A stretch of DNA of 64,000 bases from Candidatus Sphingomonas phytovorans (GTDB taxonomy: Bacteria > Pseudomonadota > Alphaproteobacteria > Sphingomonadales > Sphingomonadaceae), in NCBI GenBank assembly GCA_029202385.1, contig CP119314.1:2544501-2608500 (forward strand). The letters run 5' to 3'. A program made the position numbers and the translations under genes. Position 1 is the first letter of the stretch. Every line of letters starts with the position of its first letter. The notes under the pieces are model-generated. The model did no database searches. It worked only from the letters and a program-made list of their open reading frames with translations, and had not been told where the DNA came from. This document shows positions 22,397-52,499 of the stretch, in pieces.

Positions 22397-23713
22397 GTGA
22401 CTCAGGCCGGGATCGATGAAACGCATGCGCCGGGTCTCGAAAGCTGGGTGGCGGACGCAAACGGCCATTCCGACTTCCCCGTGCAGAATCTTCCCTTCGC
22501 GATCTTTTCGCGCAGCGGTGAGGCATCGCGGCCGGGGATCGCCATCGGTGACCATATCCTAGACCTGCCTGCCGTGCGCCACCTGCTGCCCCCGGAGCTT
22601 GGCGACGTGCCGATGGGACAGCATCTCAACGACCTGTTCGCGCTGCCGGCCGCGCGACGGAGAGCGCTCAGGCGGCAGATCTCGACCCTGCTCAGCGACG
22701 ACAGGTACAAAGCCTCGGTCGTCCCGGCCCTGGCACGGGCCGAGGATTGCCTGCTCCATCTGCCCGCGGCGATCGGGGACTATACCGACTTCTATGTCGG
22801 CATCCATCACGCGACGAATGTCGGGCGGTTGTTCCGGCCCGACAACCCGTTGCTACCCAACTATAAATATATCCCGATCGGCTATCATGGACGGGCATCC
22901 TCGATCCGCCCGTCCGGAGTTCCGGTGATCCGGCCAGTCGGCCAGTCGAAAGGCCCCGACGACCTGGAGCCGCGCTTCGGACCATCGGCGCGCCTTGATT
23001 ATGAACTTGAGCTCGGCATCTGGATCGGCAGCGGGAACGACCTTGGACAACCGATCCCGATCGGCGAGGCCGCCGATCATATCGCCGGCTTCAGCCTGTT
23101 CAACGACTGGTCGGCGCGCGATTTCCAGGCGTGGGAATATGTCCCGCTGGGGCCGTTCCTCGCCAAGAATTTCCACAGCAGCATTTCCCCCTGGGTCATC
23201 ACCTCGGAGGCGCTGGCGCCGTTCCGGATCGCGCAACCGCCCCGGCCGGAGGGTGATCCACCTCCCCTTCCCTACCTCTCGGACGGCGAGGACCAGGCCC
23301 GGGGCGCCCTGGCGATCGACCTGCGCGTCGCCCTGCTGAGCGAGCGCATGCGTAACGAGGGCCTGGCGCCGCTGGAACTCAGCCGGAGCGCCGCGTCGAA
23401 CATGTACTGGACCCCGGCGCAGATCGTCGCGCACCACAGCTCCAACGGCTGCAACCTCAACCCGGGCGACCTGATGGGCACCGGCACGATTTCGGGGCCC
23501 GATCCGTCGGGCTTCGGCAGCCTGCTGGAGATCACGCGCGGCGGATCGGTGCCTCTCCCGCTCCCGACCGGGGAGCAGCGGCACTTTCTCGAAGACGGGG
23601 ACGAGGTGATCTTCAACGGACACGCGCACGCCCAGGGTTTCGTCTCGATCGGCCTCGGCGAATGCCGCGCCAGGATCCTGCCCGCCACCCCGAGCGCGAC
23701 TTTCACCTCATAG
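22397..23713 (+). CDS. fahA: Fumarylacetoacetase
   Basis: 438 residues, starting at a GTG (22397) with GGAGG 10 bases upstream. The N-terminal SH3-like lead (DFPVQNLPFAIFS) is the true-fumarylacetoacetase type, not the shorter FAHD type. Catalytic sequence DYTDFYVGIHHATNVGRLFR, then PIGYHGRASS, ELELGIWIG and FNDWSARDFQAWEY carry the Ca/Mg ligands and the catalytic histidine. It cleaves fumarylacetoacetate to fumarate and acetoacetate, finishing homogentisate catabolism. No neighbouring maleylacetoacetate isomerase is seen. Confidence 0.95.
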   Translation: MTQAGIDETHAPGLESWVADANGHSDFPVQNLPFAIFSRSGEASRPGIAIGDHILDLPAVRHLLPPELGDVPMGQHLNDLFALPAARRRALRRQISTLLSDDRYKASVVPALARAEDCLLHLPAAIGDYTDFYVGIHHATNVGRLFRPDNPLLPNYKYIPIGYHGRASSIRPSGVPVIRPVGQSKGPDDLEPRFGPSARLDYELELGIWIGSGNDLGQPIPIGEAADHIAGFSLFNDWSARDFQAWEYVPLGPFLAKNFHSSISPWVITSEALAPFRIAQPPRPEGDPPPLPYLSDGEDQARGALAIDLRVALLSERMRNEGLAPLELSRSAASNMYWTPAQIVAHHSSNGCNLNPGDLMGTGTISGPDPSGFGSLLEITRGGSVPLPLPTGEQRHFLEDGDEVIFNGHAHAQGFVSIGLGECRARILPATPSATFTS

Positions 23714-23735: not shown

Positions 23736-24164
23736 ATGAACCAGGTCACGATCGAACAGGCACGGACAATCATTGCAAAGGCATTTGCCGAAGGCGAAGT
23801 CCGCTCTCTGAAGCCGCTGAGCGTAGCCGTACTCGATCCCGGCGGGCACCTTATCGCTTTCGAACGGCAGGATGGCGCCTCGACCCTCCGTCACAAGATC
23901 GCCGCTGGAAAGGCGGCGGGTGCGCTTGCCCTGGGCGTATCGAGCCGCAAGATCGCCGAGATGGCGGTGGAGCGCCCCACCTTTGTCGGCGCGGTGGGTA
24001 CCATCGCGCCGGACGGGATCATCCCCGCAGCCGGCGGCCTGATCATCGTCGGCGGAAATGACGAACCGCTGGGCGCAGTGGGCGTGACCGGCGACACCTC
24101 CGACAATGACGAACTATGCGCCATCGCCGGAATCCAGGCCACGGGACTGGACTACCGCCCCTGA
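23736..24164 (+). CDS. GlcG/HbpS-like heme-binding family protein
   Basis: 142 residues, the second copy in this window. LSVAVLDPGGHLIAFERQD, then IPAAGGLIIVGGNDEPLGAVG and TGDTSDNDELCA give the GlcG/HbpS signature. Starts at an ATG 22 nt after the fumarylacetoacetase stop, so it is in the same transcript. Function in heme handling is known for a few relatives only. It converges on the AAHS permease ending at 24193. Confidence 0.86.
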   Translation: MNQVTIEQARTIIAKAFAEGEVRSLKPLSVAVLDPGGHLIAFERQDGASTLRHKIAAGKAAGALALGVSSRKIAEMAVERPTFVGAVGTIAPDGIIPAAGGLIIVGGNDEPLGAVGVTGDTSDNDELCAIAGIQATGLDYRP

Positions 24165-24192: not shown

Positions 24193-25434
24193 TCATTCCG
24201 GCGCGCGTGATCCCGGGCCGTTCGCGCGCCGCAACCAAGCTGCGCTGAACATCGCCAGCGCGGCCAGCACCGCCGGCACCGCAGCAGCAAGGAACAGCCG
24301 GCTTTCCGGAACCTTGGCCGCCACCAGCGCGCCACCAAGCAGCGGGCCGACGATCGAGCCGAAACGCCCCACCGCCATGCCGATGCCCGAACCGGCCCCG
24401 CGAACGGGCGGGGGGAAGAGGTCGACCATCATCGCTGGAAAGTTGATCTGAGCGCCGAGGACGCAGAAGCCCGCCAGGAACAATACCCCGAAGATGAATG
24501 GCTCCGAAGGAAGCGGAGCCCCGATCAAGGCGACGAAGCAGGAGCCCAGCAGGGTCATGAAAGCGATCGGGAGAAAAGGACCGAAGCGGTTGATCAACGG
24601 AATACTGAAAAGCGCACCGGTGATTCCGCCGAGATTGAGGGCGACGCCCGCGAGCGCCGCCAGTTGCGGCGTGCCGCCCCGCGATACCACTAGTGACGGC
24701 GTCCAGCTCACCAGGGCGTAGGTCAGCATCAGCAGGCAGAACAGCCCTACCCAGAGGCAGACCGCCGGCCACAAGCGCCCTTCCGAAAGCGGCGCGCGCA
24801 GGAAATTGCGGTCCCGCCCGGGCGCGCGCGCGACTGCCTTGCCCTTGAAGGATTCAGGAATGGCGAGTGCCGCCACGGTCGCCAGCAGGCAGGCGACGCC
24901 AGCGCAGACAAAGACGGTTGGCCAGCCGGCATGCAGGACGCCTGCCGTCAGCGCACCGCCGACGACCGCGCCCAGCGGATAGCCGATATACATCAGCGTG
25001 ACCGTGCCGGCACGGCGATCGTGACCGGCATGTTCGGCCGTCAGCGAGATGACAGCCGGCAAGGCACCGCCAAGCCCGATGCCAGCGAGGAAACGCAGGC
25101 CCGCAAGCTGGTGGAACGTCACGGCGAGCGAGCATGCGAAGGTCATTGCCGTGGCAAGCAGAAGGGACCCGACGAGCATCGGCTTTCGCCCATAGCGGTC
25201 CGACAGGGGACCCATCGAAACCGCGCCGACGATCGCGCCGAAATAGCCCGCGGCGAAGAGCTGCCCGATATTCGTCGGCTGGAGGTGCAGCGCATGCGCG
25301 AGCAACGGCGCGACGAAGGACACCATCAGCGTGTCATAGCCGTCGACCATGACGATGAGGAACGACAGGATCACCACGCGCACGAGCGTGGCGCGATCCT
25401 GCGGAAGGCCTGTGTTCGTTTCCGCCGCGGCCAT
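24193..25434 (-). CDS. AAHS-family MFS transporter, second copy
   Basis: 413 residues from the ATG at 25434, immediately after the stop of the amidohydrolase (25437); the open frame runs further upstream inside that gene. Twelve helices, with the aromatic-acid signature VMVDGYDTLMVSF in the first and the A-motif loop GPLSDRYGRKPMLVG. It should be a proton-coupled importer of an aromatic or lactone-derived acid. It is the last gene of a three-gene operon with the aldolase and the amidohydrolase. Confidence 0.87.
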   Translation of the reverse strand: MAAAETNTGLPQDRATLVRVVILSFLIVMVDGYDTLMVSFVAPLLAHALHLQPTNIGQLFAAGYFGAIVGAVSMGPLSDRYGRKPMLVGSLLLATAMTFACSLAVTFHQLAGLRFLAGIGLGGALPAVISLTAEHAGHDRRAGTVTLMYIGYPLGAVVGGALTAGVLHAGWPTVFVCAGVACLLATVAALAIPESFKGKAVARAPGRDRNFLRAPLSEGRLWPAVCLWVGLFCLLMLTYALVSWTPSLVVSRGGTPQLAALAGVALNLGGITGALFSIPLINRFGPFLPIAFMTLLGSCFVALIGAPLPSEPFIFGVLFLAGFCVLGAQINFPAMMVDLFPPPVRGAGSGIGMAVGRFGSIVGPLLGGALVAAKVPESRLFLAAAVPAVLAALAMFSAAWLRRANGPGSRAPE

Positions 25435-25436
25435 GG

Positions 25437-26321
25437 TCAGGCGAAGCCCAGGAGTTTTCTGGGGTTGTCGCTCAGGATCTGCTTCCTGACCGCCGGATCG
25501 GGCGCCCATATTGCAAGCAGGTTGAGCAGGGCGCCGGTATCCCGTCCGCCCTCCGGGATATGCGGCCAGTCCGACCCCCAGATCGCGCGCTCGGGCGCGG
25601 CGGCGACGATTGCCTTGGCGATCTCATTGACTGGATCCATGCCGCGCTTCTTCGCGAGGCGATAGGGTGCCGACAGCTTGAGCCAGCAACGCCCCTGCTT
25701 CATCAGCGCGAGCAGTCGCGAGAAATCGTCCTCGGTCAGGCCATCCTCCTCGAGCATATAGCCCATATGGTCGATGACATAATCGATCTCGAGCGTCGCA
25801 AGGAAGTCGATCAGGTCGCGCACAACATAGCCTGGAGCATAGAATTGGAGGTGCCAGCCAAGCGGCGCGACCTTCGCTGCCATCGCGGTGATGAAATCCT
25901 GGATTTCCTGCAACGGCAGTTGGGCGCGCTTGAACAGGTCGAGCCGCACGCCGCAGACACCGGCCTCCGCATAGGCCTGGAGCGTGGCGACATCGACGTC
26001 CGGGTCGACCATCACAACGCCCCGGGCCATGCCGCCCGCAGCCTTCAGATTATCGATCAGGCACCGATTGTCCGTATCGTAGAAACTCGGCTGCACGATC
26101 ACGAAATGGCGAAGGCCCAGAACCGGCATCGCCGCGCGAAACTGCTCAAGCGTGGCATCGGGCAGCGTATAATGCGGCCGTTCGACGGAGGGGTAGCAAT
26201 CAAGCGGACCGAAGATGTGCATGTGCGCGTCGACCGCGCCTTCCGGCATGTCGAACATCGGCGTTTCGAGCGTTTCTGCTGGGCGCATCGGCTGCGAAAC
26301 GAGCGGTTCGGTTGCTGTCAT
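25437..26321 (-). CDS. Amidohydrolase, 2-pyrone-4,6-dicarboxylate lactonase-like
   Basis: 294 residues. The metal-binding DAHMHIFGP starts near residue 30 and the closing WGSDWPH carries the catalytic aspartate; DNRCLIDNLKA and RGVVMVDPDVD follow the LigI/PDC-hydrolase pattern. LigI opens 2-pyrone-4,6-dicarboxylate in lignin-aromatic catabolism. Conservation of general fold is clear, but the ligand need not be that lactone. It sits directly ahead of the AAHS permease and 36 nt after an HpaI-type aldolase, so lactone opening followed by aldol cleavage is the natural reading. Confidence 0.82.
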   Translation of the reverse strand: MTATEPLVSQPMRPAETLETPMFDMPEGAVDAHMHIFGPLDCYPSVERPHYTLPDATLEQFRAAMPVLGLRHFVIVQPSFYDTDNRCLIDNLKAAGGMARGVVMVDPDVDVATLQAYAEAGVCGVRLDLFKRAQLPLQEIQDFITAMAAKVAPLGWHLQFYAPGYVVRDLIDFLATLEIDYVIDHMGYMLEEDGLTEDDFSRLLALMKQGRCWLKLSAPYRLAKKRGMDPVNEIAKAIVAAAPERAIWGSDWPHIPEGGRDTGALLNLLAIWAPDPAVRKQILSDNPRKLLGFA

Positions 26322-26356: not shown

Positions 26357-27166
26357 TCAGGCGAACTTGCGGCGCCAGCTGTCCGCACGTTGCGTCAGCC
26401 CCTCCGCCACGACATCGGTATCGATGCCGGCGAAAATGAAGGGCGCGAACCCCATGTCGAGCAACGCCAGAAAATGATCGTCATCGGCCACGCCGCCGAT
26501 GATCGCGACCTTTCCGTGCTTTCGAGCGGCCGCGGCCACGCGTTCGCAAGCCTGCATCACCGCTGGATCGCGCACCTTTCCCGGACAGCCCATTTCAGCG
26601 GTCAGATCGTTGGTGCCGACCGCGACGATGTCGATGCCCTCGACAGCGGCGATCGCATCGGCATTTTCAACGCCTAGCGGGGATTCAATGAGGGCCTGAA
26701 CGGTGATCGACCGGTTGGCTGTCGTTACGAATTCATCCGCCGGCGTGCGGACAAAACCCGTTTGCGGAAGCCTGGCGAGCATCGACCGCTTCCCGACGGG
26801 CGGGAAGCGGCATGCGGCTGCGAGAAGACGTGCCTCGGCATCGTTCTCAATCTTTGGCCCGATGATCCCGGTGGCGCCGCTGTCGAGGAGCCTGCCGATG
26901 ACCCCATATTCGCGTTCCGGGACACGCACCCACGCGCCAAGCCCGATATCATGTGCCGTGGCGGCAATCTGCGACGCGGCGTCGATGGATATGCTGCTGT
27001 GCTCAAGGTCGATCCAGACAAGGTCGTAGCCTGCCCCCGACGCCATGCGCGCGATATCGGGCGTGCGGCTGTAGCGGATGCCGAGAGACAATATGCGATG
27101 GCCGGCGGCAAGGCGCACCATGACCGGCGTTTCCAGATCAATGGAGCGCTCGCGATCATAGCGCAT
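26357..27166 (-). CDS. HpcH/HpaI-family aldolase
   Basis: 269 residues from the ATG at 27166, which has GAGGAGAGGG upstream; the open frame runs 18 codons further. The sequence DLVWIDLEHSSI, ALIESPLGVENADAI and VGTNDLTAEMG shows the metal-binding glutamate and aspartate of class II pyruvate aldolases. Products would be pyruvate plus an aldehyde from a 4-hydroxy-2-oxo acid, as in homoprotocatechuate or protocatechuate meta-cleavage. First gene of the operon; LysR is divergent. Confidence 0.85.
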   Translation of the reverse strand: MRYDRERSIDLETPVMVRLAAGHRILSLGIRYSRTPDIARMASGAGYDLVWIDLEHSSISIDAASQIAATAHDIGLGAWVRVPEREYGVIGRLLDSGATGIIGPKIENDAEARLLAAACRFPPVGKRSMLARLPQTGFVRTPADEFVTTANRSITVQALIESPLGVENADAIAAVEGIDIVAVGTNDLTAEMGCPGKVRDPAVMQACERVAAAARKHGKVAIIGGVADDDHFLALLDMGFAPFIFAGIDTDVVAEGLTQRADSWRRKFA

Positions 27167-27334
27167 CGTCAGACCCTCTCCTCTTGCACGGGCCCCCGGT
27201 TTGAACCCTGGCGGCCGCACGGCTGATTTTTTCCGGACGCGGCGACATGGCCACCGCGCGAACCGTCATTTGCCGCCCGAGTTCGTTTTATGCTAATTTA
27301 ATACCGGAGCGCGATTGATTGGGCTAATATATCA

Positions 27335-28246
27335 ATGGATATTCGGCAGCTGCGTTACTTCACTGTCCTCTGCGAAGAACTTCATTTTCGACGCGCGGCC
27401 GAACGATTGAACATCACGCAGGCGCCGCTCTCCCTGGCGATCCAGTCGCTCGAGCGCGAGCTCGGCGCGCAATTGTTCCACCGGACCCAGCGGCGAGTCT
27501 CGCTGACCGACGTCGGCGCCGCGTTCCGGTCGAATGCCATCGCAGTCCTTGGACAACTCGAACGCGCCGTGGATGATGTCCGCGAGATGGTGCAAGGCGA
27601 GGCCGGGCATCTTCGGATCGGCTTCACCGCCGGCTCTTCCCTGCTTTTCTTCTTTCCCAAGATCGTCCGGACGTTCAGGACCCGCTATCCGCAGGTGAAG
27701 GTGACCCTCCATGAAATCTCGTCGCAGGGGCAGATGACCGCACTTGCCGATCGGGAGATCGACATCGGCTTCATCCGCACGCTCACTGCCCCCAACCGCT
27801 CCGAGATCAGCTTCACTCATCTCGTCGAGGACCCTCTGGTGGTCGCAATGCATGCCGAACATCGGCTCAATCGGGCCGAGACGCTGACGATCGCCGAACT
27901 GCAGGACGAGCCGCTCATCTTCTATCCGCGGAAATCCGGGGTGGGCATCTACGATCAGGTGATCAAGCTCTTCTCGCGCCAGGGCCATATGCCGAACATC
28001 GTTCAGGAGGCGCAGGAATCATCCACGATCATCAGCCTCGCGGCGTCGGGGCTCGGCGTGGCGATCGTTCCCTCGGAACTCCAGTGCATCAAGGTGCCTA
28101 ATATCAGCTTCAGGCCGCTCGCCGATGAAGGGGCGGTCACGCGCCTGCTGCTTGGATGCCGGGCCGGCGAGGAGAGCGCGCTGGTCGCGAACTTCCGCCG
28201 CCTGGCCCAGGCGACGATCGCATCGGCGCACCGCGAAGCGCCCTGA
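27335..28246 (+). CDS. LysR-family transcription regulator
   Basis: 303 residues. N-terminal winged helix FRRAAERLNITQAPLSLAIQSLERELGAQLF, then a two-lobed effector domain beginning GHLRIGFTAGSSLLF. Divergent from the aldolase-amidohydrolase-AAHS operon with 168 bp between the starts, where AT-rich sequence (ATGCTAATTTAATACC, 27290-27305) offers T-N11-A sites. Such regulators usually respond to a pathway intermediate and control the divergent operon. It could also act on the receptor 230 bp downstream. Confidence 0.9.
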   Translation: MDIRQLRYFTVLCEELHFRRAAERLNITQAPLSLAIQSLERELGAQLFHRTQRRVSLTDVGAAFRSNAIAVLGQLERAVDDVREMVQGEAGHLRIGFTAGSSLLFFFPKIVRTFRTRYPQVKVTLHEISSQGQMTALADREIDIGFIRTLTAPNRSEISFTHLVEDPLVVAMHAEHRLNRAETLTIAELQDEPLIFYPRKSGVGIYDQVIKLFSRQGHMPNIVQEAQESSTIISLAASGLGVAIVPSELQCIKVPNISFRPLADEGAVTRLLLGCRAGEESALVANFRRLAQATIASAHREAP

Positions 28247-28474
28247 GCTCCGGGACAAAGCTTGATTGCTTATTTAAAACAATTGGCCCTTCACATTGAA
28301 TTGGCGCAGATCAACCTCCTTCCCCTATCCAGACGAAGACGCCGCCGGGTCAGCCCGTGAATGCCGCTGGTACCGTTGCGACTGCAGGCCAGGCTATCGG
28401 CCCTGATCGCAACGATCCCGCCCATTCCGGACAGACGAAAATCGCAGCGCGCCTGTTCGGGAGAGGAAGTTACG

Positions 28475-30832
28475 ATGCACCAGCTGAAGAGATCATTTTC
28501 ACGTTCGATCGGGAGGTCTGCGCCGATCTTCCTGATTGGCTCCATGATGTCGCCGATCGCGGAAGCCCAGACCGTGAACCCGCCCGAATCCGAGCGGGAA
28601 GAGCAAGGCATCGCCGACATCATCGTCACTGCGGAACGCCGCAAGAGTTCGGTGCAGGATACGCCGATCGCAATCAGCGCCTTTGATGGCGCCAGGCTCG
28701 AAAGCCAGGGCATCGTATCGGTCGAGGGACTGTCGCGCATCGCGCCGAGCCTCCAGATCTATTCCGAACAGATCAACAACGAAGAATATATCATTCGCGG
28801 CATCGGCAAATCCAATGAGGATCTGACGACGGATTCGGGCGTCGCGGTCAACATCAACGATGCCTATATTCCGCAGTCGGGCGAGGCCAACGCAGCGCTT
28901 TTCGATATCGAGCGCGTCGAGGTGCTGCGCGGCCCCCAGGGAACGCTCTACGGCAAGAACGCCGTCGGCGGGGTCATCAATATCATCACGCGCAAACCGA
29001 CCGATCATCTGGACGGCTATGTCCTCGCCGAACTCGGCGGGCTCGGCCGCCGCCAGTTCGAAGCCGCGGTAGGTGCTCCGGTCGTCGAGGACAAGCTGTC
29101 CGCCCGGATCGCCGGTTTCTCGCTCCATACGGATGGCGCATACCGCAATCTCACCACCGGCCGGCGCGCGAACGGCATCGATTCCCAGGCGCTGCGCGGG
29201 TCGGTCCGCTTCACGCCCAACGAGGATTGGGAAATCAATCTGGTGGCCGATTATTCCAAGGTCGACCAGCACGGCGTTCTCAAGAGCATCATCGCCGATG
29301 TGCCCGGAACGCCTCTCATCGTCCGCGACTTCCTCGAGGGCCCCTACCCCACCCAGGAAAAGGATATTCGCAGCGGCAGGAGCGAAACCGAAGGCGAACA
29401 GGGCATTCGCCAATGGGGCGGCGTGCTGAGGGTCGACCGCAAGGCCGATGCCGGAACCATCTCCTTCCTTTCCGCCTATCGCAGCGAACGCAGCTACAAT
29501 GTCGAGGACGTCGATCGCACGGCCGCGCTGCAAAACAACTTCTCGGCAACCCAGAAGACCTGGGCGACGAGCCAGGAGCTGCGTTTCGTCTCCGACGATG
29601 CCGGACCACTCTCGGCAGGTGGCAAGCTCCATTGGTCGGGAGGTCTCTATTGGTTCCACGAGCAGGGCAGGCGCGATCAGCAGATTTTCCTGCACGGCTG
29701 CACACCCGGCAGCCAGCCATGCGATGCCGGCAAACCCGACGATCCCGACGATGGGATCCTGGGGCCTGGCTCGCCCGACTATCAGAACAGCACGACGAGC
29801 TTCCTGCAGCGGGTCAACACCGACAGCTTCGCGGCCTTTGGCGAAATCAAGTATGATATCGCCGACCGGCTGAGCGCGACCGCGGGCCTGCGCTACACCA
29901 GCGAGAACAAGAGCTTCGACCTCGACGCGACCAGCGTCGCGAACGTGCCGGGCGGCGATCCCTTTTCCCTGTTCATGCCTGATGGCGATTTCCGGGCATC
30001 GCGGAGCAAGACCTGGCACAGTCTCACGCCCAAGTTCGTCCTGGAGTTTGCGCCGAACGGCAACATCCACACCTATGCGAGCTATGCGCGCGGCTTCAAG
30101 AGCGGTGGTTTCAACGGCCAGGCGGGAACGGCAGCGGACACCGAAGCCTTCAACCCGGAGGTCGCCGACAATTTCGAGGTTGGCGTCAAGGCTGACCTGC
30201 TCGACCGTCGCCTGCGGCTCAACGCCGCCGCCTTCTACATCAAATTCAATGACCTGCAGGTCTCGGGCGTAAACCAGCAAGGCCTGATCATCACCAACAA
30301 CGCCGCCGACGCGCGCATCAAGGGTTTCGAACTCGAAGGCTGGGCTCAGCCACTGCCGGGCCTGAACATCAACGGCAGCCTCTCGCTGCTCGACGCGACC
30401 TTCAGGAACTATGCGATCGAGGCGTTCGATCCGTCGATCACCGACGGGCCACCCTTCTATATCCTCGACCTCAACGGCAAGCGCCTGCCGAACATTCCCA
30501 GATATACGGCAACGCTCGGTGCGCAATATGAGCACAGGTTCGGCAACGGTTCCAAGGTGAGGATAGGAGCGGACGGGACGTTCAAGGGCAACACCCTGAC
30601 GAACGAGCTGACGCTCCGCGCCAATTCCTACACCGTGGTCGATGCCAGGATCGGCTGGACCTCCGCCAATGGACGCTGGGATTTCAGCGGCTGGATCCGG
30701 AACCTCACCAACGAAGTCTATTATACCGGCGGCGGCGCCATTCCGGACTACAACAAGACGACAACACGGGTTGGCCTGGTGGCCGACCCCAGGACGGCAG
30801 GCGTCACGGTCAAGCTCCTGTTTGGAGAATGA
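28475..30832 (+). CDS. TonB-dependent outer-membrane receptor (785 aa)
   Basis: Start at ATG 28475 (GAGAGGAAG upstream); the frame is open another 38 codons but the signal peptide (RSAPIFLIGSMMSPIAEAQ) begins here. The TonB-box-like ADIIVTAERRKSS is followed by the plug motif VEVLRGPQGTLYGKNAVGG and barrel strands such as YARGFKSGGFNG. The final residues lack the usual C-terminal aromatic strand end (KLLFGE), a small oddity. It is followed by a terminator-like hairpin and then by the EAR-propeller gene, with which it may form a functional unit. Confidence 0.94.
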   Translation: MHQLKRSFSRSIGRSAPIFLIGSMMSPIAEAQTVNPPESEREEQGIADIIVTAERRKSSVQDTPIAISAFDGARLESQGIVSVEGLSRIAPSLQIYSEQINNEEYIIRGIGKSNEDLTTDSGVAVNINDAYIPQSGEANAALFDIERVEVLRGPQGTLYGKNAVGGVINIITRKPTDHLDGYVLAELGGLGRRQFEAAVGAPVVEDKLSARIAGFSLHTDGAYRNLTTGRRANGIDSQALRGSVRFTPNEDWEINLVADYSKVDQHGVLKSIIADVPGTPLIVRDFLEGPYPTQEKDIRSGRSETEGEQGIRQWGGVLRVDRKADAGTISFLSAYRSERSYNVEDVDRTAALQNNFSATQKTWATSQELRFVSDDAGPLSAGGKLHWSGGLYWFHEQGRRDQQIFLHGCTPGSQPCDAGKPDDPDDGILGPGSPDYQNSTTSFLQRVNTDSFAAFGEIKYDIADRLSATAGLRYTSENKSFDLDATSVANVPGGDPFSLFMPDGDFRASRSKTWHSLTPKFVLEFAPNGNIHTYASYARGFKSGGFNGQAGTAADTEAFNPEVADNFEVGVKADLLDRRLRLNAAAFYIKFNDLQVSGVNQQGLIITNNAADARIKGFELEGWAQPLPGLNINGSLSLLDATFRNYAIEAFDPSITDGPPFYILDLNGKRLPNIPRYTATLGAQYEHRFGNGSKVRIGADGTFKGNTLTNELTLRANSYTVVDARIGWTSANGRWDFSGWIRNLTNEVYYTGGGAIPDYNKTTTRVGLVADPRTAGVTVKLLFGE

Positions 30833-31000: not shown

Positions 31001-32128
31001 ATGCAGCAGGACAGCGATTTTCTGGCGGCCGAGGCAAAGATCCTCGCGGTCCACCAGCGGCTCGCCACGTCGGGCGCGCGGTGCGCGCACATCTTCACGC
31101 TTGGAGACACAGTGAACCTTGTCGTGCCTCAGCTCGCCGAGGATATCCCGGGCCAGGCTCCGCACATGAATGCCGGCAATTCCGACGTGGACGCGATCCT
31201 CTACCGCTGGAATGACGGACGCTTCGTCGAACATGGGCGCCTTCCCAGCCCGGGCGGCGAGGACGCGCTTTGCTTCAACAACGGCGAGGGCACCTATCTC
31301 GCCTTTGCCAATCTGCGCACTGGAAGCGGGCCCTATCAGCCGAACACGACCTCACTGATCTATCGGGAGGTCGACGGGGAGTGGACGCTTGACGAGACGG
31401 TACCGACCTTCGCGGCAAAACAGTGGCATCATTTCTCGCTCGACGGCCGGGAATTCCTCGCGCTGGCACAGGGCCTCACCCTTCCCCACCTGTCGCCCGA
31501 GGGGCACGGCCGATCGGTCCTGTTCGAACGGATCAACGGCAAATGGATCGAGTTCCAGGTCCTGGGTGGGCGCTGGGGATATAATTGGTGCGACTTCGAG
31601 ATCGATGGTCACCACTTCCTCGCCTATGCGGATCATATCTCACCGAGTCTCATTTACCGCTGGGACGGGGCATCCTTCGTGCCCTACCAGTCCTTCGCCG
31701 AACAAACGGGGCGATCCTTTCTCCATTTCAGGCGTGACGGTTCCGACTGGCTCGCCTTTGCCGCGATTGGCGGCGTATCGACGCTCTATCGCTGGAACGG
31801 TGAATTGTTCGTCGCCCACCAGTCGCTCGGCGGCGCGGGAGGCCGCGAATTCGAACTGATCGACAGCGACCACGGCCTCTTCCTCGTGAGAATATGCTTC
31901 ATCGAAGGCACCCCTGCCGATCCCAAGACGACACTCACATCGCAGCTGTTCAAATGGGCCGACGGAAAATTCGAGCTGATCGAGGAATTTCCGACCTTCG
32001 GCGGCACCGATGCAAGTCATTTCCGGGCGGATGGAAGAGACTATCTGGTGGTCTCCGACAGCCTGACACCCGATGTCCGATACCGGCAGGACATGGTGAT
32101 CTACGAACTGTCGCTGGACCGGGCCTGA
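31001..32128 (+). CDS. Seven-unit EAR/EPTP-repeat beta-propeller protein (375 aa)
   Basis: Start at ATG 31001 with AAGGA nine bases upstream. Seven tandem units of about 44 residues recur, each with a Trp/His-Phe core, a hydrophobic FLA(Y/F/V)A strand and an IYRW-G--F strand: examples are HHFLAYADHISPSLIYRWDG and DWLAFAAIGGVSTLYRWNG. This is the epilepsy-associated repeat (EAR/EPTP) pattern known from LGI1 and TSPEAR, where seven repeats make a beta-propeller for protein-protein binding. It has no signal peptide that I can see. It sits 22 nt before an unrecognised gene, both between two TonB receptors. Role unknown; a binding scaffold is inferred. Confidence 0.72.
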   Translation: MQQDSDFLAAEAKILAVHQRLATSGARCAHIFTLGDTVNLVVPQLAEDIPGQAPHMNAGNSDVDAILYRWNDGRFVEHGRLPSPGGEDALCFNNGEGTYLAFANLRTGSGPYQPNTTSLIYREVDGEWTLDETVPTFAAKQWHHFSLDGREFLALAQGLTLPHLSPEGHGRSVLFERINGKWIEFQVLGGRWGYNWCDFEIDGHHFLAYADHISPSLIYRWDGASFVPYQSFAEQTGRSFLHFRRDGSDWLAFAAIGGVSTLYRWNGELFVAHQSLGGAGGREFELIDSDHGLFLVRICFIEGTPADPKTTLTSQLFKWADGKFELIEEFPTFGGTDASHFRADGRDYLVVSDSLTPDVRYRQDMVIYELSLDRA

Positions 32129-32149
32129 GCGAGAATAGGGGACGAGACG

Positions 32150-33316
32150 ATGCGTTACGAAACCGACCCTGAATTCAAGAAACTTTACGAGCTCTTCACC
32201 TCGACCCAGGACAGCATCGGGACTCACCTTCAGCGACAACTCGGGGCGGTCAACGCCGACGATCCCCTCCTCGTCGCGACGGGAAGCGACCTGGTATTCT
32301 TTCCCGGATCCGGCCGGCCTCCGGTGACGGAAAGCTTTCGCCTGTCGACGCGGGGCTTCTTCGAGCTCACCGGCGTCTCGCACCTTGGTATCGCCATTCC
32401 CTATCTCGCCCGGCTCCGGGAGACGGGGTGTGACGGGTGGGAACGCGATGCACGCGACCTCATTGCCCAGTGCCGCACCACAAGGGCCGCCAATAGCGGG
32501 GCTTACTGGCGCGACACGGTCGCGGTCGAGGCCTGGTCGGGCCTCGAAGACAAGATCTCTGATCTCGTTGACTATACCTGCGCGACCACCGCCGACTATC
32601 TCGAAAAGGCGCTCGCAGATCCGGCGCTTTTCGATTTCGAGTATCTGCAGGCGAACCTGCTCGAGGGCGATGGCCCGGATGCCCTGCCCGTGCCGTTCAA
32701 CGACATGATGGCGGCCACCTTTGCCCTTGTCTTTCTCGATACGGGGTACCGGATCATAAATTGGCTGCACGCGCAGGATATTCGCTGGGACCGCCTCATG
32801 GTGATGATCAGCGGGCGTGCCGGCCGGCCCACCGCCGGGGTCACCTGGCAGACGAACAGCATGTGCCACCTGCTCTATCAGACGTCGGCACGAAAACTCG
32901 ATCCCGAGCGGCTGCTGATCGCGCCGCACGCCCCAAGCCTTGCCCTGAGCGAGCTCACCGGTCCGGAAGCGTGCGCGCGGATCGAGGCCGATTACCGGCA
33001 GATCTGGTACAGTTCCCGCTCCTCCGTCGAGATGAGCCGCCTGATGTGGCCGGATTATCCAGCGTACAAAAAACCGGTCGAGGCGCCCCCGGTCGTTGAC
33101 CCCGAGACGCGGATCGTTTCCGAAATCCCGATGGTCAGATCGGTCAATGACCGGCGCGCGATCGTGACCCGGCTGCGCTATGTCATGGAGGACCCAGCGC
33201 AGCAGATCGCGATGGCGGGATCGCAGTTCATGATCGACCAGTTGTGCGCCAACGGCAACAGGCCCGACCTGGTCGAGATTCCAGGCTTTACCCACATTTC
33301 ATACCCGAAAGTCTGA
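32150..33316 (+). CDS. Unrecognised protein, 388 aa, paired with the EAR-propeller gene
   Basis: I do not recognise this family. The sequence is soluble, acidic and mixed alpha/beta, without a signal peptide or transmembrane helix. Conserved-looking stretches include GSDLVFFPGSGRPPV, FFELTGVSHLGIAIPYL, RTTRAANSGAYW and RAGRPTAGVTWQTN. It has several Trp and Cys residues but no catalytic motif that I can name. It starts 22 nt after the EAR-propeller stop, strongly suggesting translation from the same message. The pairing suggests an enzyme and its binding partner, but that is only inference. Confidence 0.8.
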   Translation: MRYETDPEFKKLYELFTSTQDSIGTHLQRQLGAVNADDPLLVATGSDLVFFPGSGRPPVTESFRLSTRGFFELTGVSHLGIAIPYLARLRETGCDGWERDARDLIAQCRTTRAANSGAYWRDTVAVEAWSGLEDKISDLVDYTCATTADYLEKALADPALFDFEYLQANLLEGDGPDALPVPFNDMMAATFALVFLDTGYRIINWLHAQDIRWDRLMVMISGRAGRPTAGVTWQTNSMCHLLYQTSARKLDPERLLIAPHAPSLALSELTGPEACARIEADYRQIWYSSRSSVEMSRLMWPDYPAYKKPVEAPPVVDPETRIVSEIPMVRSVNDRRAIVTRLRYVMEDPAQQIAMAGSQFMIDQLCANGNRPDLVEIPGFTHISYPKV

Positions 33317-33353: not shown

Positions 33354-33428
33354 TGGCTGATCGGTCACCAAGCGATTCCAGTGCCGGATTCGGACACGTC
33401 CCCCCCGGGACGGCAGGCATCTGATATT

Positions 33429-33440
33429 TGACATATGTCA
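33429..33440. promoter_or_regulatory. Palindromic operator-like site upstream of receptor gene
   Basis: TGACATATGTCA is a perfect 12-bp palindrome 78 bp before the receptor start (33518), next to further TGACA(T/C) half-sites (33460) and an AT-rich segment. A related TGAC-N5-GTCA dyad sits at 38045-38057 in front of the TetR gene. The combination suggests that TetR binds both. Confidence 0.45.
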
Positions 33441-33517
33441 TATTGACGATTATCCATTATGACATTACTCCATTATATAAATCGAGCCGCAATGGCGGCC
33501 TTAGAGGGAGAGAGACC

Positions 33518-35686
33518 ATGAAGAAGGCCTGGCTGGCGGTATCGACAGCGTGGATATGCCTGGTGCCTTGCGAGGCGATCGCACAGGATGCGCCGAGCAC
33601 CGACGCGGCGCCCGACATCATCGTGACGGCGCAACGCCGGGCCGAGCGCCTTCAGGACGTGCCGATCGCGATCACAGCATTGTCGGCCGAGCAGTTGGCA
33701 GCATCGGGCGTGTCGGACGTCACCAAGCTCAACACGATCACGCCGGGTCTCTATATCCAGGCTTCGACCGGCTTCGTGTCGCCGCACATTCGCGGCATCG
33801 GCACCTCGGCGGGCGGCGCTGGACTGGAGAATTCCGTCGCCGTGTATATCGACGGCGTCTACATGGCGTCGCAGCCGGGCTCGCTGCTTTCCCTCAACAA
33901 CGTTGCCCGGATCGAAGTGCTGAAGGGCCCGCAGGGAACCCTGTTCGGGCGCAACGCGACGGGCGGCCTCATCCAGATCGTCACGCAGGATCCAACCCAG
34001 GATTTCACCGCGAAGATGACCGCCGGCTACGGCAATTACGATACCTTCACGGGCAGCGCCTATGTCGCCGGCGGCATCGCGCCGAATCTGGCTGCGGATA
34101 TTGCCGGGCAGGTGACGACCCAGGGCAAGGGCTACGGCATCAACGTCGCGACCGGCAACGATGTCTATCGCACCAAGCTCGACCTCGCGCTCCGCTCGAA
34201 ATGGGTGTTCACGCCGACCGACGCGACGACGATCAAGCTTTCGCTCGATTACGAGCGCCGGATCGGCAACACCTCGATCAGTTCGAAGGAAGCGCCCGGA
34301 CTGGTCCCGGTGTTCGGCCCCGCGTACAATATCCGCACCTGGGACATCAACGCCGACTATGACCCCTATCAGCGCCTGAACGGCGGTGGCGCGAGCCTCG
34401 ACATCCAGCAGGATCTGGGCGGAGTCCAGCTTCAGTCGATCACTGCCTATCGCAAGTCCGAATACACGATCGGGTTCGATACCGACCTGACGCCGACCCC
34501 GGCCCAGACGCTGACGATCTCGGTCCTCAAGGACCGACAGATCAGCCAGGAACTGAAGCTCCAGTCAGAGGCCGGATCGAAAATCCAGTGGGTCGTGGGC
34601 GCCTTCTACTTCAACGCCGATGCCGAGCTCGACCCGAACGTCCTGAGACTTGGCGGCCCGGCGATCCCGCCTCCCCCGGCACCGCCGATCACCGGGATTT
34701 CCAACTATGCCAAGCTCACCACCCGCGCCTGGGCGGGCTATGGACAGGTGACCGTGCCGCTTGGCGACAGGACCAAGCTGACCGGCGGCTTCCGCTACAG
34801 CACCGAACGCCGGTCGATCTTCTCGACGACGGCGGCAACGCTGATCAACGGCGTCGTCATCAACCCGTTCGGGCCCAACACGTCACAGCATGTGACCTTC
34901 TCCGCGCCGACATGGCGGGTGTCGCTCGACCACAAGCTCGACGACAACAATATGATCTACGCGTCATACAATCGCGGCTTCAAGAGCGGCGGCTACAATG
35001 CCCGGAACGCCGCAGCACCGGCGTTCGCGCAGGAACAGCTCGATGCCTATGAAGTGGGCATCAAGTCCGACCTGTTCGACCGCCTGCTCCGGGTGAATGC
35101 CGCGGCATTCTACTACAAATACCGCAACATCCAGGTGAGCCGGTTCGAGCTCAACAACATCTTCATCTACAATGGCGCCGGCGCGGAAATCTACGGCGTC
35201 GACCTCGATCTCCAGTTGCGTCCGGCCAAGGGGCTGACCATCGACGGTGGCGTCAGCGTCCTCCACGATCGCTTCACCAGCTTCCCGAACGCCGATCGCT
35301 ACACCCCCAATCCGTTGGGCGGATCGATCCGGTCGACGGTATCGGCCGAGGGCAACCGGCTTCCGATCACGCCGGACGCGACAGTCAACCTCAACGTCCA
35401 TTATGTGCGCGAGACGAAGGCGGGCATCTGGTCCTTCGATCTGGGCGGCTACTATAACAGCGGCTTCTTCGGCCAGCCCGACAATGTGCTCGAGCAGAAA
35501 GCCTATGCGCTGCTCGACGGATCGATCGGCTGGAAAATGCCGGACAAGCGGTACGGCATCAGGGTCTGGGGCAAGAACCTGACCAACAAACCGGTCACCA
35601 CCGCACTCGGCCAGTCCGACACGTCAGCCATCGTCCAGTACGACGCGCCGCGCACCTACGGGATCACGCTGAGCGCCGACTTCTGA
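33518..35686 (+). CDS. TonB-dependent outer-membrane receptor (722 aa)
   Basis: Start at ATG 33518 with AGAGGGAGAG upstream; 30 earlier codons are open but not preceded by a ribosome site. Signal peptide KKAWLAVSTAWICLVPCEAIAQ; DIIVTAQRRAERLQDVPIA precedes a plug with IEVLKGPQGTLFGRNATGG; barrel with YNRGFKSGGYNA; ends in YGITLSADF as expected. Close in wording to the receptor at 1-2186, so both probably bind related ligands. An operator-like palindrome upstream suggests TetR control. It precedes the frameshifted esterase. Confidence 0.95.
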   Translation: MKKAWLAVSTAWICLVPCEAIAQDAPSTDAAPDIIVTAQRRAERLQDVPIAITALSAEQLAASGVSDVTKLNTITPGLYIQASTGFVSPHIRGIGTSAGGAGLENSVAVYIDGVYMASQPGSLLSLNNVARIEVLKGPQGTLFGRNATGGLIQIVTQDPTQDFTAKMTAGYGNYDTFTGSAYVAGGIAPNLAADIAGQVTTQGKGYGINVATGNDVYRTKLDLALRSKWVFTPTDATTIKLSLDYERRIGNTSISSKEAPGLVPVFGPAYNIRTWDINADYDPYQRLNGGGASLDIQQDLGGVQLQSITAYRKSEYTIGFDTDLTPTPAQTLTISVLKDRQISQELKLQSEAGSKIQWVVGAFYFNADAELDPNVLRLGGPAIPPPPAPPITGISNYAKLTTRAWAGYGQVTVPLGDRTKLTGGFRYSTERRSIFSTTAATLINGVVINPFGPNTSQHVTFSAPTWRVSLDHKLDDNNMIYASYNRGFKSGGYNARNAAAPAFAQEQLDAYEVGIKSDLFDRLLRVNAAAFYYKYRNIQVSRFELNNIFIYNGAGAEIYGVDLDLQLRPAKGLTIDGGVSVLHDRFTSFPNADRYTPNPLGGSIRSTVSAEGNRLPITPDATVNLNVHYVRETKAGIWSFDLGGYYNSGFFGQPDNVLEQKAYALLDGSIGWKMPDKRYGIRVWGKNLTNKPVTTALGQSDTSAIVQYDAPRTYGITLSADF

Positions 35687-35776
35687 CCAGTTGAGGCTTT
35701 CATGATCGGCACGACCGATACCCGCGACACCCTGGCGATCAGATCGAACCCCGCCGAGCGAACATTGGAGATTTTC

Positions 35777-36878
35777 ATGAACCGATACAGAAAGAGGTTG
35801 ATCGTGGCAGGCAGCCTGGCCGCTTTTGCGATGGGGAGTGCAACCGTGGCGGATGCGAAGGAAGCCCAGCCCGCGGGTGGCCCGTCCGGCACCCAGTGCC
35901 CGGCGACACCGCCTCCGCCAGGCATGCCGAGTATGCCGCCCATTCCGATGGCGACAAGCGTCAAGCCAAGCGATGTGAGCACCAGTACCGTGATCAAGCC
36001 CGACCCGGCCGATCAGATCGAGTGCGGCCACATCGCGTTGAAGACGGTATCCAACGTCGCCTTCGCCCACATCCCCGGTCCGGGCGGCCAGGCGCGCGAT
36101 CTCGCCCTGGATATTCTCTCCCCTTCCGCACCCGGCAAATATCCGCTGGTCATCTACGTTACTGGCGGCGGCTTCGTCATCGCCCCCAAGGAGAACGGGC
36201 TGAACCTGCGCACCTTCGTGGCCGAGAATGGCTTCGTGGTCGCCAGCATTCAGTATCGGACGGCCATGGACGGCGCGACCTTCCGCGACGGCGGTCGCCG
36301 ACGTAAAGTCAGCGATCAGATTCCTGCGCGCCCACGCCGCCGACTATGGCATCGATCCTTCGCGCGTGGCGGTCTGGGGTGAATCGGCGGGTGGCTATCT
36401 CGCCGCCATGGTCGGCGTGACGAACGGGGTGAAGGACTTCGATCGTGGCGACAATCTCGACCAGAGCAGCGCCGTCCAGGCCGTTGTCGACAAGTTCGGC
36501 ACGTCGGACACGGTGCATGTGGCGGAGGATTTCAATCCCGAGATGGCAGGCTTCGTTGCGCCCGGATCGCCGATCGCACGCTATCTTGCCGAGGGTGGTA
36601 CGGCCTTTCCCCCCGCTTCCAATCCCCTCACCTATATCGACCGGTCTGATCCGCCGTTTCTGATCTTCCATGGCAACCAGGACCGGATTGTGTCGCCGAG
36701 CCAGACACTGAGGCTGCACAATGCTTTACGCGCCGCCGGCGTCCCGAGCACGCGCTATATCCTGGATGGGGCCGGCCATGGCGATCTCGCCTTCGTCGGT
36801 GATCCAATGGCCGGCCTTCCCTGGTCGTCGAAGGAAACCATGAATATCATCGTCCACTTCCTGCATGATCCGAAGTGA
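35777..36878 (+). pseudogene. Alpha/beta hydrolase (secreted esterase) broken by a +1 frameshift
   Basis: The first part (35777 to about 36290) has a signal peptide ending near VADAKEA and strands VIYVTGGGFVIAPKENG and VASIQYRTAM. The second part is in another frame from about 36291 and supplies the catalytic GESAGG, the aspartate of HGNQDRI and the histidine of GAGHGD. Deleting the G at 36290 restores AVADVKSAIRFLRAHAADYG in one frame. The likely intact enzyme would be a 367-residue BD-FAE/xylan-esterase-like periplasmic hydrolase. Whether this is a true mutation or a read error cannot be told here. Start ATG 35777 has TTGGAG upstream. Confidence 0.8.
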
Positions 36879-40073: not shown

Positions 40074-40583
40074 CTAATGGCATTTGAATTTGTCGAACGG
40101 CTCCAGGCAATCGTCACATTGCCAAAGCGCTTTGCACGGGGTCGACCCGAAGCGGCTGATCTCACGCGTCCCGGCCGAGTTGCATCGGGGGCAATGGACG
40201 GTCTCACGAGCGCGCAACGAATGCAGGGCCGCATTCCTGGCCGGCGGCGCAATGCCGTAGGCCAGCAGTTTCTCCCGCCCGGCATCGGTGATCATGTCCG
40301 TCGTCCATGGTGGATAGAGTTCGGTCCGGATCTCGACATTCGAGAAGCCGGCATCGTCGAGCCCGGCCCGTACGGAAGCCTCGATGACGAGCGTGGCCGG
40401 GCAGCCCGTATAGGTTGGCGTCAGCGTGACCCTTGGCGTGCCGGCGGTCTCGATCGACCGGACGATGCCGAGGTCAATCACCGAAACCACGGGGATTTCG
40501 GGATCAGGCACGGTCGCCAGCACTTCGGCGAGACGATCGGCCAGGCCAGAATCGGACGGCACCGATGCGCCCATGGCCGTCAC
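40074..40583 (-). CDS. paaD: Phenylacetate pathway accessory protein PaaD
   Basis: 169 residues. N-terminal half is the MIP18/DUF59 type: VLATVPDPEIPVVSVIDLGIVRSI and VTLTPTYTGCPA, thought to aid iron-sulfur assembly. C-terminal zinc-ribbon-like cysteines (HCPRCNSAG and LWQCDDCLEPF) follow. PaaD is needed for PaaABCE function but not catalytic. Overlaps paaC by 4 nt (40580-40583) and is separated from paaE by 8 nt. Confidence 0.94.
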   Translation of the reverse strand: MTAMGASVPSDSGLADRLAEVLATVPDPEIPVVSVIDLGIVRSIETAGTPRVTLTPTYTGCPATLVIEASVRAGLDDAGFSNVEIRTELYPPWTTDMITDAGREKLLAYGIAPPARNAALHSLRARETVHCPRCNSAGTREISRFGSTPCKALWQCDDCLEPFDKFKCH

Positions 40584-41335
40584 CAGGCGGCTTCGGGGTG
40601 CGCTCGGGGCACGACCTGCATGACCGCGAGAAGCGGTGACAGATGCTCGGTGTGGCGCCCGTCGCGACCGCCCGATATCTGCCAGACTCGCCCGGGCTGT
40701 GCAGGCAGCGTCGCGATGGACAGCAGTTCGGCGACGCGGCTGTCGAACCCCGCCCGCAGTGCCGTACGATCGAACAACACGCCTTCGGGCTGGAGACCGG
40801 CCTGTTCCTCGCTGCGGGCAAACATGTCGTCGACGAAGCGCCAGAACCAGTCGAAGCCCTCCGTCATGCGTAGCCTGCTTTCATCGGTGCCGTCGCCGAG
40901 CCGGACGACCCAGTCCGACGCCAGCTCGGCATGATAGGCGACCTCCTTGATCGCCTTCGCGCTGATGGCCGCGATCCTGGCGTCGGCTGAGCCCTGAAGC
41001 TTGCCGAACAACGCCAGTTGATAGGTCGAGAAGAGGAACTGCCGGGCGATGGTCTGGCCGAAGTCGCCATTGGGCTGTTCGACCAGCAGGCAGTTCCGGA
41101 ATTCGCCCGCATCGCGGTGGAAGGCCAGCCGATCGGCGCTGCGCCCCTTCCCTTCCACCTCGCCGGCATAATCGAGAAACAGCGTGGCCTGGCCGATCAG
41201 GTCGAGCGCGAGGTTCGACAGGCCGAGATCGACCTCGATGCTCGGCGCATGCCCGCTCCATTCGCAAAGCCGCTGGCCAAGAATGAGTGAATCGTCGGCA
41301 AGCTCGAGAAGAGCAAGGAAAAGCGGGTCGTTCAT
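40580..41335 (-). CDS. paaC: Phenylacetyl-CoA epoxidase subunit PaaC
   Basis: 251 residues, all alpha-helical. LLELADDSLILGQRLCEWSGHAP and DLIGQATLFLDYA are family landmarks, with residues EVAYHAELASDWVVRLGDGT from the PaaC di-iron-like bundle. PaaC pairs with PaaA as the structural partner of the epoxidase. Overlaps paaD by 4 nt; paaB ends 7 nt earlier. Confidence 0.95.
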   Translation of the reverse strand: MNDPLFLALLELADDSLILGQRLCEWSGHAPSIEVDLGLSNLALDLIGQATLFLDYAGEVEGKGRSADRLAFHRDAGEFRNCLLVEQPNGDFGQTIARQFLFSTYQLALFGKLQGSADARIAAISAKAIKEVAYHAELASDWVVRLGDGTDESRLRMTEGFDWFWRFVDDMFARSEEQAGLQPEGVLFDRTALRAGFDSRVAELLSIATLPAQPGRVWQISGGRDGRHTEHLSPLLAVMQVVPRAHPEAAW

Positions 41336-41342
41336 GCCTGTC

Positions 41343-41627
41343 TCACATGTGCTTCACGGCGTCGGGAAGGTCGTAGAAGGTCGGGTGCCGGTAGATCTTG
41401 TCTTCGGCGGGCTCGAACAGCGCGGCTGATTTCCCCGGATCGGAAGCCACGATGTCGCTCGACCGGATGACCCAGATGCTCACCCCCTCCATCCGCCGAG
41501 TGTAGGTATCGCGCGCGTGCCGGACGGCGAGATCACCGTCGGGCGCATGCACCGAGCCGACATGGCGATGCTCGATCCCCCCGCGCGCCCGCACGAACAC
41601 TTCCCAAAGGGGCCAATCCCTGCTCAT
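41343..41627 (-). CDS. paaB: Phenylacetyl-CoA epoxidase subunit PaaB
   Basis: 94 residues from the ATG at 41627, which overlaps paaA's stop by 4 nt; the frame is open much further up inside paa[26 protein letters not shown] and [17 protein letters not shown] are the PaaB hallmarks. The small subunit bridges PaaAC units in the epoxidase complex. Confidence 0.94.
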
Positions 41628-42631
41628 TCCCGCACCCCTCCTGCCAGTGCCGCCACGGCGTGCGCGTGCTTCGCCTGATAGGCATCGGCCGCCGCGCGAA
41701 CCCATGCCCCCGCTTCCCACGCGGCGCGGCGCGCGTTGATCCGTTCCTTCGCCACCGGGCCATGCCCCTGGACGACCGCGTAGAATTCCTCCCAGTCGAT
41801 CGCGCCGAAATCATAATGCCCGCGCTCCTCGTTCCAGCGCAGGTCCGGATCGGGAATGGTGAGCCCCAGCAGTTCCGCCTGGGGAACCGTCGCATCGACG
41901 AATTTCTGGCGCAGCTCGTCGTTCGTCTCGCGCTTGATGCGCCAGCGGATCGACTGGGCGCTGTTGGGCGAATTGTCGTCGGGCGGGCCGAGCATCATCA
42001 GCGCTGGCCACCACCAGCGATCGAGCGAATCCTGCGCCATCGCCTTTTGGGCGGTGGTGCCGTTCGCGAGCGAAAGGAGCAGGTCGAAACCCTGGCGCTG
42101 GTGGAAGCTCTCCTCCTTGCAAACGCGTACCATCGCTCGGGCATAGGGGCCGTAGGATGTCCGCTGGAGCGGGACCTGATTCATGATCGCGGCACCGTCC
42201 ACCAACCAGCCGATCGCGCCGATGTCCGCCCAGCTCAGCGTGGGATAGTTGAAGATTGTCGAATATTTCGCCTTGCCCGCATGCAGGGCGTCGATCATCT
42301 GTTCCCGGCTGGTTCCCAGGGTTTCCGCCGCGCAATAAAGGTAGAGACCGTGCCCCCCTTCATCCTGGATCTTGGCCAGGAGGATCGCCTTGCGCTTGAG
42401 GCTTGGCGCCCGCGTCAGCCAATTGCCCTCGGGCAGCATCCCGACGATCTCGCTGTGCGCGTGCTGGGATATCTGGCGCGTCAGCGTGCGCCGATAAGCT
42501 TCAGGCATCCAGTCCTTCGGTTCGATGAATTCGTCCGCCGCGACCCGCGCCTCGAACGCGGCAAGCATCGCGGAATCCTCCACGTCGGCCGGAGCGACTG
42601 CCGCAACCCTATCCAGCTCTGTCGTATACAT
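41624..42631 (-). CDS. paaA: Phenylacetyl-CoA epoxidase catalytic subunit PaaA
   Basis: 335 residues. Helical di-iron ferritin-like fold; [16 protein letters not shown] (about residue 100-115) and [15 protein letters not shown] (about residue 155) supply the carboxylate and histidine ligands. It epoxidises the ring of phenylacetyl-CoA. The start ATG at 42631 has AGGAGATTCAGG upstream and an operator-like site about 35-50 bp further. First of five coupled genes. Confidence 0.96.
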
Positions 42632-42664
42632 CCTGAATCTCCTGCGCTTCAGGCCATATAATTA

Positions 42665-42680
42665 ACCGACCATACGGTCA
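42665..42680. promoter_or_regulatory. PaaR-like operator upstream of paaA
   Basis: ACCGACCATACGGTCA contains inverted halves GACC and GGTC around ATAC and lies 34-49 bp before the paaA ATG. A related sequence, TGTCCGATCGGTCA, is at 44015-44028 between the thiolase and paaG, so both sides of the regulon share it. This resembles TetR-type PaaR operator sites known in other proteobacteria, but I have not compared them directly. Confidence 0.55.
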
Positions 42681-42712
42681 ATGAATTATCTGCATTGAGC
42701 GAACGGATTCTT

Positions 42713-43912: not shown

Positions 43913-44014
43913 TATCTTCTCCCCATGGCGCCGGCACCAAAAGCGCTGGCGACCTCTTCTGAATCGATCGACATGCCTCGCCTCCTAGAGCCGAAAATTG
44001 CGCTTGCCAATAAT

Positions 44015-44028
44015 TGTCCGATCGGTCA
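44015..44028. promoter_or_regulatory. PaaR-like operator between thiolase and paaG
   Basis: TGTCCGATCGGTCA, containing the palindrome CCGATCGG, lies 31-44 bp before paaG and about 100 bp from the thiolase start. It shares the CGGTCA half with the site upstream of paaA. Position between divergent genes fits control of both. Confidence 0.55.
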
Positions 44029-44058
44029 GTCTATAAAAAGAAACGTAGAGGAGCCAGG

Positions 44059-44850: not shown

Positions 44851-44868
44851 GCTCTGGCAGAGGCTTTT

Positions 44869-46893: not shown

Positions 46894-46910
46894 GAGGATC
46901 GGCCAGAGAA

Positions 46911-49178: not shown

Positions 49179-49179
49179 A

Positions 49180-49293
49180 TCAGACCTTCTCAATACCCAT
49201 TCCCGGCAGCCGGCACGCGCCCAGCGCCGCGAGGGCAGCCTCGCTATCGATCGTCATGATTTCGCCCGCAATCAAACCGGATTTTGCATTCAT
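49180..49293 (-). CDS. Predicted 37-residue protein in the hpa operon
   Basis: A short frame from the ATG at 49293 to the stop at 49180-49182. The ATG overlaps the FAD-oxidase stop in an ATGA (49290-49293), the same coupling as the other genes of this operon, and the ketopantoate reductase-like ATG follows its stop by one base. The product begins MNAKSGLIAGEIM and continues with an alanine- and leucine-rich helix, ending GIEKV. I do not recognise it. The coupling could mean a real small subunit or regulator, or a leftover fragment kept for translational coupling. Confidence 0.5.
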   Translation of the reverse strand: MNAKSGLIAGEIMTIDSEAALAALGACRLPGMGIEKV

Positions 49294-52482: not shown

Positions 52483-52499
52483 CTCGATCCTCCTGTCGG

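Follow-up and report, generated by a model that had tools for sequence, protein, structure and literature searches.

The window analysed here, a 64,000-nucleotide (nt) stretch of the 5.45-Mb single-contig genome of Candidatus Sphingomonas phytovorans, carries on one strand the gene of an EAR/EPTP-type propeller protein (hereafter EPTP protein) followed, after a gap of 21 nt, by the gene of a DUF5624 protein. This gene pair travels together between distantly related soil bacteria, often amid genes for aromatic breakdown, and by the searches made it constitutes an undescribed two-gene module composed of known families. Because the two genes are transferred together and lie in an aromatic-catabolic neighbourhood, their products probably act jointly as an undescribed enzyme. 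Our fuller reading, to which we tentatively assign a probability of roughly 0.45, is that of a cytosolic two-protein module, nearly always kept together and working as one enzyme at the start of a catabolic route or close to it.

31001..32128, + strand: EPTP/EAR protein, predicted seven-bladed propeller, 375 amino acids (aa), apparently cytosolic by its N-terminus
32150..33316, + strand: DUF5624 protein, 388 aa, candidate catalytic partner

The first-pass annotation had described this arrangement as an EAR propeller paired with an unrecognised protein; the tight pairing stood, but the second protein proved to be a member of DUF5624, an already described domain family with no assigned function. 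Homologues of the window proteins were taken as the best 120 of 699, of 469 and of 940 matches, and two alignments of 32 sequences each were made; among the best 120 of 699 and the best 120 of 469 matches sphingomonads were the closest named relatives by both pair proteins.

Linkage and shared history of the two genes

The locus scan used one genome per species of the Genome Taxonomy Database (GTDB) and covered near relatives of the DUF5624 protein that share two peptide patterns. It returned 16 loci from sphingomonads, other proteobacteria and actinobacteria, and the EPTP gene lay directly upstream of the DUF5624 gene on the same strand in 15 of them, so that the pair is together across relatives and the genes are not apart in most of them, the outcome that the first-pass annotation had set against its own proposal. 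The propeller-first order was also found on a Sinorhizobium plasmid (46% identity) and a Streptomyces plasmid (42%), in one place each. The intergenic gap had a median of 22 nt and a range of -14 to 100 nt (23 of 24 rows, leaving out locus L012, which has no assigned start), and the copy numbers of the two genes were equal in 15/15 genomes, a Burkholderiales metagenome-assembled genome (MAG) holding two of each; the genome of locus L007 was not among the genomes searched. On the 1.03-Mb linear plasmid of Streptomyces mirabilis (L022) there are two DUF5624 places, the better of which was examined.

The exception to the pairing is a Sphingomonas MAG with the EPTP gene (L093; G296, contig C134, 3256-4380) and the DUF5624 gene (L011) on different contigs. 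Its EPTP protein is 77% identical, and the gene sits between a transporter and, directly following it, a relative of the receptor found downstream of DUF5624 in the window. The partners are thus unlinked yet both kept in this genome, unless the MAG is mixed.

Profile surveys were performed on samples of three larger groups. Either family was found only in the window's own genome among 296 genomes of its order, and among 398 genomes from its phylum DUF5624 was found in one and EPTP in two, the second being the giant frame described below. In the Lentzea family 249 genomes were covered, of which the identical eight hold both families and none holds one alone; the naive chance of this 8/249 overlap is 3e-15, a figure that ignores relatedness and counts four genomes, including the centre, that were known beforehand. 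Neither family was found in 14 control genomes.

The distance matrices of the two proteins, calculated for 23 pairs, correlated at 0.971, and none of 5000 permutations reached a value that high. The 23-row trees omit L013, a duplicate of L092, and also L011 and L093, which have one partner each. In both trees (unrooted) eight actinobacterial rows are nested within the clade of the window and Sphingopyxis (100/100) and four further actinobacterial rows form a separate clade, the simplest reading being that the pair crossed phyla together at least once.

Properties of the two proteins

The EPTP protein matches the Pfam EPTP model (PF03736) with E=3.1e-40 and 136.4 bits against a curated cut-off of 21, in six significant stretches, and its predicted fold has seven four-stranded blades. 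An EAR propeller of the type found in the human epilepsy protein LGI1 was the top structural match (Foldseek, VIA-align) as well as the top match by profile. The seven-unit EAR/EPTP propeller of the first-pass annotation is therefore borne out by both profile and predicted fold.

Every blade carries a polar residue that is near-invariant in 98-100% of 57 EPTP rows (R27, E87, K140, Y194, R238, R282, and T336), located five positions before the blade phenylalanine (isoleucine in blade 6). The 57-row sets, one for each protein, are partly redundant: some rows are nearly identical, the window sequence occurs two times, and L013 and L092 are one locus. Since the set of polar residues is mixed, a structural requirement common to all repeats explains the conservation poorly. 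In propellers generally the equivalent positions at the start of the inner strand line the central pore. The same position, read by eye, also varies between blades in a giant EAR protein of the proteobacterial genome G324 (C1, about 431732-435616; loci L055-L067). This protein is a 19,352-aa open frame whose 13 EPTP matches fall into two groups, probably two EAR propellers within an adhesin-like protein.

The DUF5624 protein matches PF18538 in Pfam with E=7.5e-45 and 152.6 bits against a cut-off of 25, and its predicted fold is that of 4jx2 (22-23% identity in the fold match), which was released in 2013, is the only DUF5624 crystal structure found and came with no assigned role. Literature searches for DUF5624, for lpg1979 (the Legionella protein of this structure) and for 4jx2 turned up no paper. 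Dozens of residues are near-invariant; those kept in at least 97% of the 57 rows include R64, E72, S77, H78, E133, Y142, C144, N184, T190, R226, W233, R283, E294, R343, E347, and D348, and of these E72, S77, H78, C144, N184, and T190 are aligned identically in 4jx2. No NCBIfam model matched either pair protein at E<=10.

A signal-peptide-like N-terminus was seen in 0/57 rows for each protein by simple hydropathy, 25 of each 57 rows being cut to the matched stretch (threshold 2.0; the leader of the window esterase, the positive control, scored 2.28). Because no export-like N-terminus was seen, both proteins probably act in the cytosol.

Genomic neighbourhood and proposed role

Two genes for putative catabolic enzymes lie on the opposite strand near the pair:

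25437..26321, - strand: Amidohydrolase_2 protein, LigI-like lactonase (PF04909, E=1.4e-44; 4d8l, 2-pyrone-4,6-dicarboxylate hydrolase, E=2.4e-39)
26357..27220, - strand: HpcH/HpaI-type (class II pyruvate) aldolase (PF03328, E=1.9e-34; nearest solved structure 1dxe, E=7.8e-27)

Aligned with 4d8l, the lactonase shows the same HxH, H and D motifs as LigI, which presumably include the metal-binding residues, plus two arginines, and by its sequence similarity it may act on 2-pyrone-4,6-dicarboxylate. In the aldolase the H, E and D positions typical of the family are conserved, presumably in their usual roles. The motifs kept in the two enzymes suggest that a carboxylated lactone is opened and that pyruvate is then released by retro-aldol cleavage. 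More specific identities were rejected: 4-sulfomuconolactone hydrolase for the lactonase (NF042924, 170.3 bits against an equivalog cut-off of 500) and HpaI 4-hydroxy-2-oxoheptanedioate aldolase for the aldolase (TIGR02311, 107.7 bits against an equivalog cut-off of 368.8), which belongs within the wider PF03328.

In 10 of 19 genomes, close aldolase (47-72%) and lactonase (49-82%) genes, overlapping or tens of bases apart, are mutually adjacent in the vicinity of the pair; three of these genomes are actinobacterial, and in one, the split MAG, they are near DUF5624 only. At the Sinorhizobium locus (L021) they lie about 7-8 kb from the pair. Lactonase and aldolase form the association of the window that spans two phyla. 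Three loci of the nested actinobacterial clade (L005, L006, and L007) have a nitroreductase after the pair in place of these genes, and two of the three also have a flavin monooxygenase together with an SRPBCC protein. The window itself has a nitroreductase-like gene at 11286-11879 that by eye resembles the nitroreductase that Nocardia, Lentzea, and Saccharothrix carry directly 3' of the pair.

As the pair is constant while the lactonase and aldolase vary, an entry step is favoured for it. We infer a physical complex in which an anionic substrate derived from a ring compound would be held in the central pore of the EAR propeller by the one near-invariant polar residue per blade and presented to the DUF5624 protein. 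With its dozens of near-invariant residues, the latter would serve as the catalytic chain or share in catalysis, at the first step of the route or close to it. The next enzymes, in one widespread arrangement, would be the LigI-like lactonase and then the HpcH/HpaI aldolase releasing pyruvate, and sphingomonads add TonB receptors, a transporter of aromatic-acid type and a fumarylacetoacetase. It seems rather unlikely that this amounts to a new class of two-subunit enzyme, in which a cytosolic EAR pore and the orphan-fold DUF5624 jointly provide the substrate site or active site; to our knowledge a catalytic role would be a first for the EAR family.

Several observations weigh against an enzymatic module of this kind. 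The correlation between the trees is expected of any two co-inherited genes and is no proof of contact, and in the split MAG, where the two genes are apart, the lactonase and aldolase adjoin DUF5624 and not EPTP. The DUF5624 protein has no recognised active-site motif, and 4jx2 is its sole clear fold match. In the other nine of the 19 genomes with the pair, nothing matched the aldolase at E<=1e-40, while lactonase matches were at 35-38% in five and absent in four; the lactonase-aldolase route is therefore not obligatory.

Receptor and regulator genes around the pair bear on the alternatives:

28361..30832, + strand: TonB-dependent receptor upstream of the pair (PF07715, PF00593), sphingomonad context only
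33428..35686, + strand: TonB-dependent receptor downstream of the pair (PF07715, PF00593), sphingomonad context only
27335..28246, + strand: LysR regulator (PF03466, PF00126)

If the pair carried out a (de)hydration after the LigI-like lactonase and before the HpaI aldolase, it would take the position of LigJ, which fills the hydratase step in the protocatechuate 4,5-cleavage pathway. The likeness of the lactonase to LigI and the closely spaced lactonase and aldolase genes near the pair in two phyla are consistent with this, but in nine of 19 genomes the pair occurs with no close match to either enzyme, and neither family is hydratase-like by Pfam, LigJ-like genes not having been searched for systematically. 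Furthermore, an HpaH hydratase is encoded near DUF5624 in L011 (437 bits against a cut-off of 351.5) with a homologue in L013/L092, so that a hydratase may be supplied already in those loci; this weakens the explanation, which we consider unlikely. Slightly less probable again is that catalysis lies with the EAR protein itself, which might form or open lactones, with DUF5624 as its partner or as a sequential enzyme; some muconate-lactonising and lactonase enzymes are seven-bladed propellers. A sensor or regulatory module, in which the propeller binds a ligand and DUF5624 transmits the signal, would agree with the lack of a recognised enzyme signature in either protein and with the LysR regulator that accompanies the pair in 10 of 17 loci (the L003 member is just 32% identical). 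Pfam, however, assigns neither protein a DNA-binding or signalling domain, and a LysR match was present in just 2 of 12 actinobacterial loci (25% and 32% identity), which makes a non-enzymatic role improbable.

The first-pass annotation had the pair handle the ligand of the flanking receptors. By gene calls the receptor cluster is present in 8 of 17 loci, all eight of them sphingomonad, and the actinobacterial and Burkholderiales pair loci have no receptor among their gene calls; actinobacteria, as Gram-positives, have no TonB system. The presence of the pair there leaves receptor-ligand handling unsupported as a general role and largely refutes a general role as accessory of the receptors, an explanation for which the sphingomonad clusters speak and which, with no export signal seen, we regard as very improbable. 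The best guess is still an enzyme with a propeller partner, as first proposed, but its receptor chemistry is dropped, the neighbourhood favouring aromatic or lactone catabolism.

The remaining neighbours identified in the window were:

22397..23713, + strand: fumarylacetoacetase (TIGR01266, 517 bits, above the cut-off of 375.3)
23736..24164, + strand: HbpS-like small protein (PF03928, E=1.3e-27)
24193..25509, - strand: MFS transporter, aromatic acid:H+ symporter type (top NCBIfam model TIGR00895 at 274 bits and E=1.7e-81, short of the cut-off of 418.55)
35702..36878, + strand: BD-FAE-type esterase (PF20434, split as positions 1-60 and 64-215 over two open reading frames, ORFs)
40580..48182, strand unspecified: paa genes (PaaC, 3-oxoadipyl-CoA thiolase, PaaG, PaaZ, PaaK), wider context
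48150..53969, - strand: hpa-like genes (2-dehydropantoate reductase-like, GlcD-like, HpaG-C-like, HpaD-like dioxygenase, HpaE-like), wider context

The esterase ORFs (35702-36382 and 36228-36878) overlap in different frames, apparently through a frameshift or sequencing error. In L002, L012, and the actinobacterial L086 a homologue is found no more than about 9 kb from the pair. The NCBIfam models for PaaC, the thiolase, PaaG, and PaaZ scored above their cut-offs and PaaK slightly under (637 against 646.3 bits), while among the hpa-like genes the reductase model alone was above its cut-off and the GlcD, HpaG-C, HpaD, and HpaE models were below.

Comparison with known systems

Legionella lpg1979 (DUF5624, PF18538, PDB 4jx2) has its family and predicted fold in common with the window protein, but its chain is titled a putative secreted protein; the present findings place DUF5624 beside a gene partner and in a metabolic context. 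The lower protocatechuate 4,5-cleavage pathway (lactonase LigI, hydratase LigJ, aldolase LigK) likewise combines a lactonase with a pyruvate aldolase, although the window aldolase is of the HpcH/HpaI type, and we know of no counterpart of EAR or DUF5624 in that pathway. If the pair is an enzyme, it would add a step to aromatic or lactone catabolism that is present in two phyla.

The giant protein of G324 is another bacterial EAR protein from the same phylum as the window, but it differs in that the EPTP repeats are part of its 19,352-aa frame and that its genome has no DUF5624 match. LGI1 and the other animal EAR propellers (PF03736) have the seven-bladed fold in common with the bacterial protein. 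The animal forms are extracellular or secreted (PMC3691968, and general knowledge), whereas the bacterial one stands alone, is apparently cytosolic and has a fixed gene partner. The same 2013 review of human LGI proteins describes as unknown whether anything associates with the EAR pore (PMC3691968), and the bacterial EAR protein offers a tractable homologue for such propellers.
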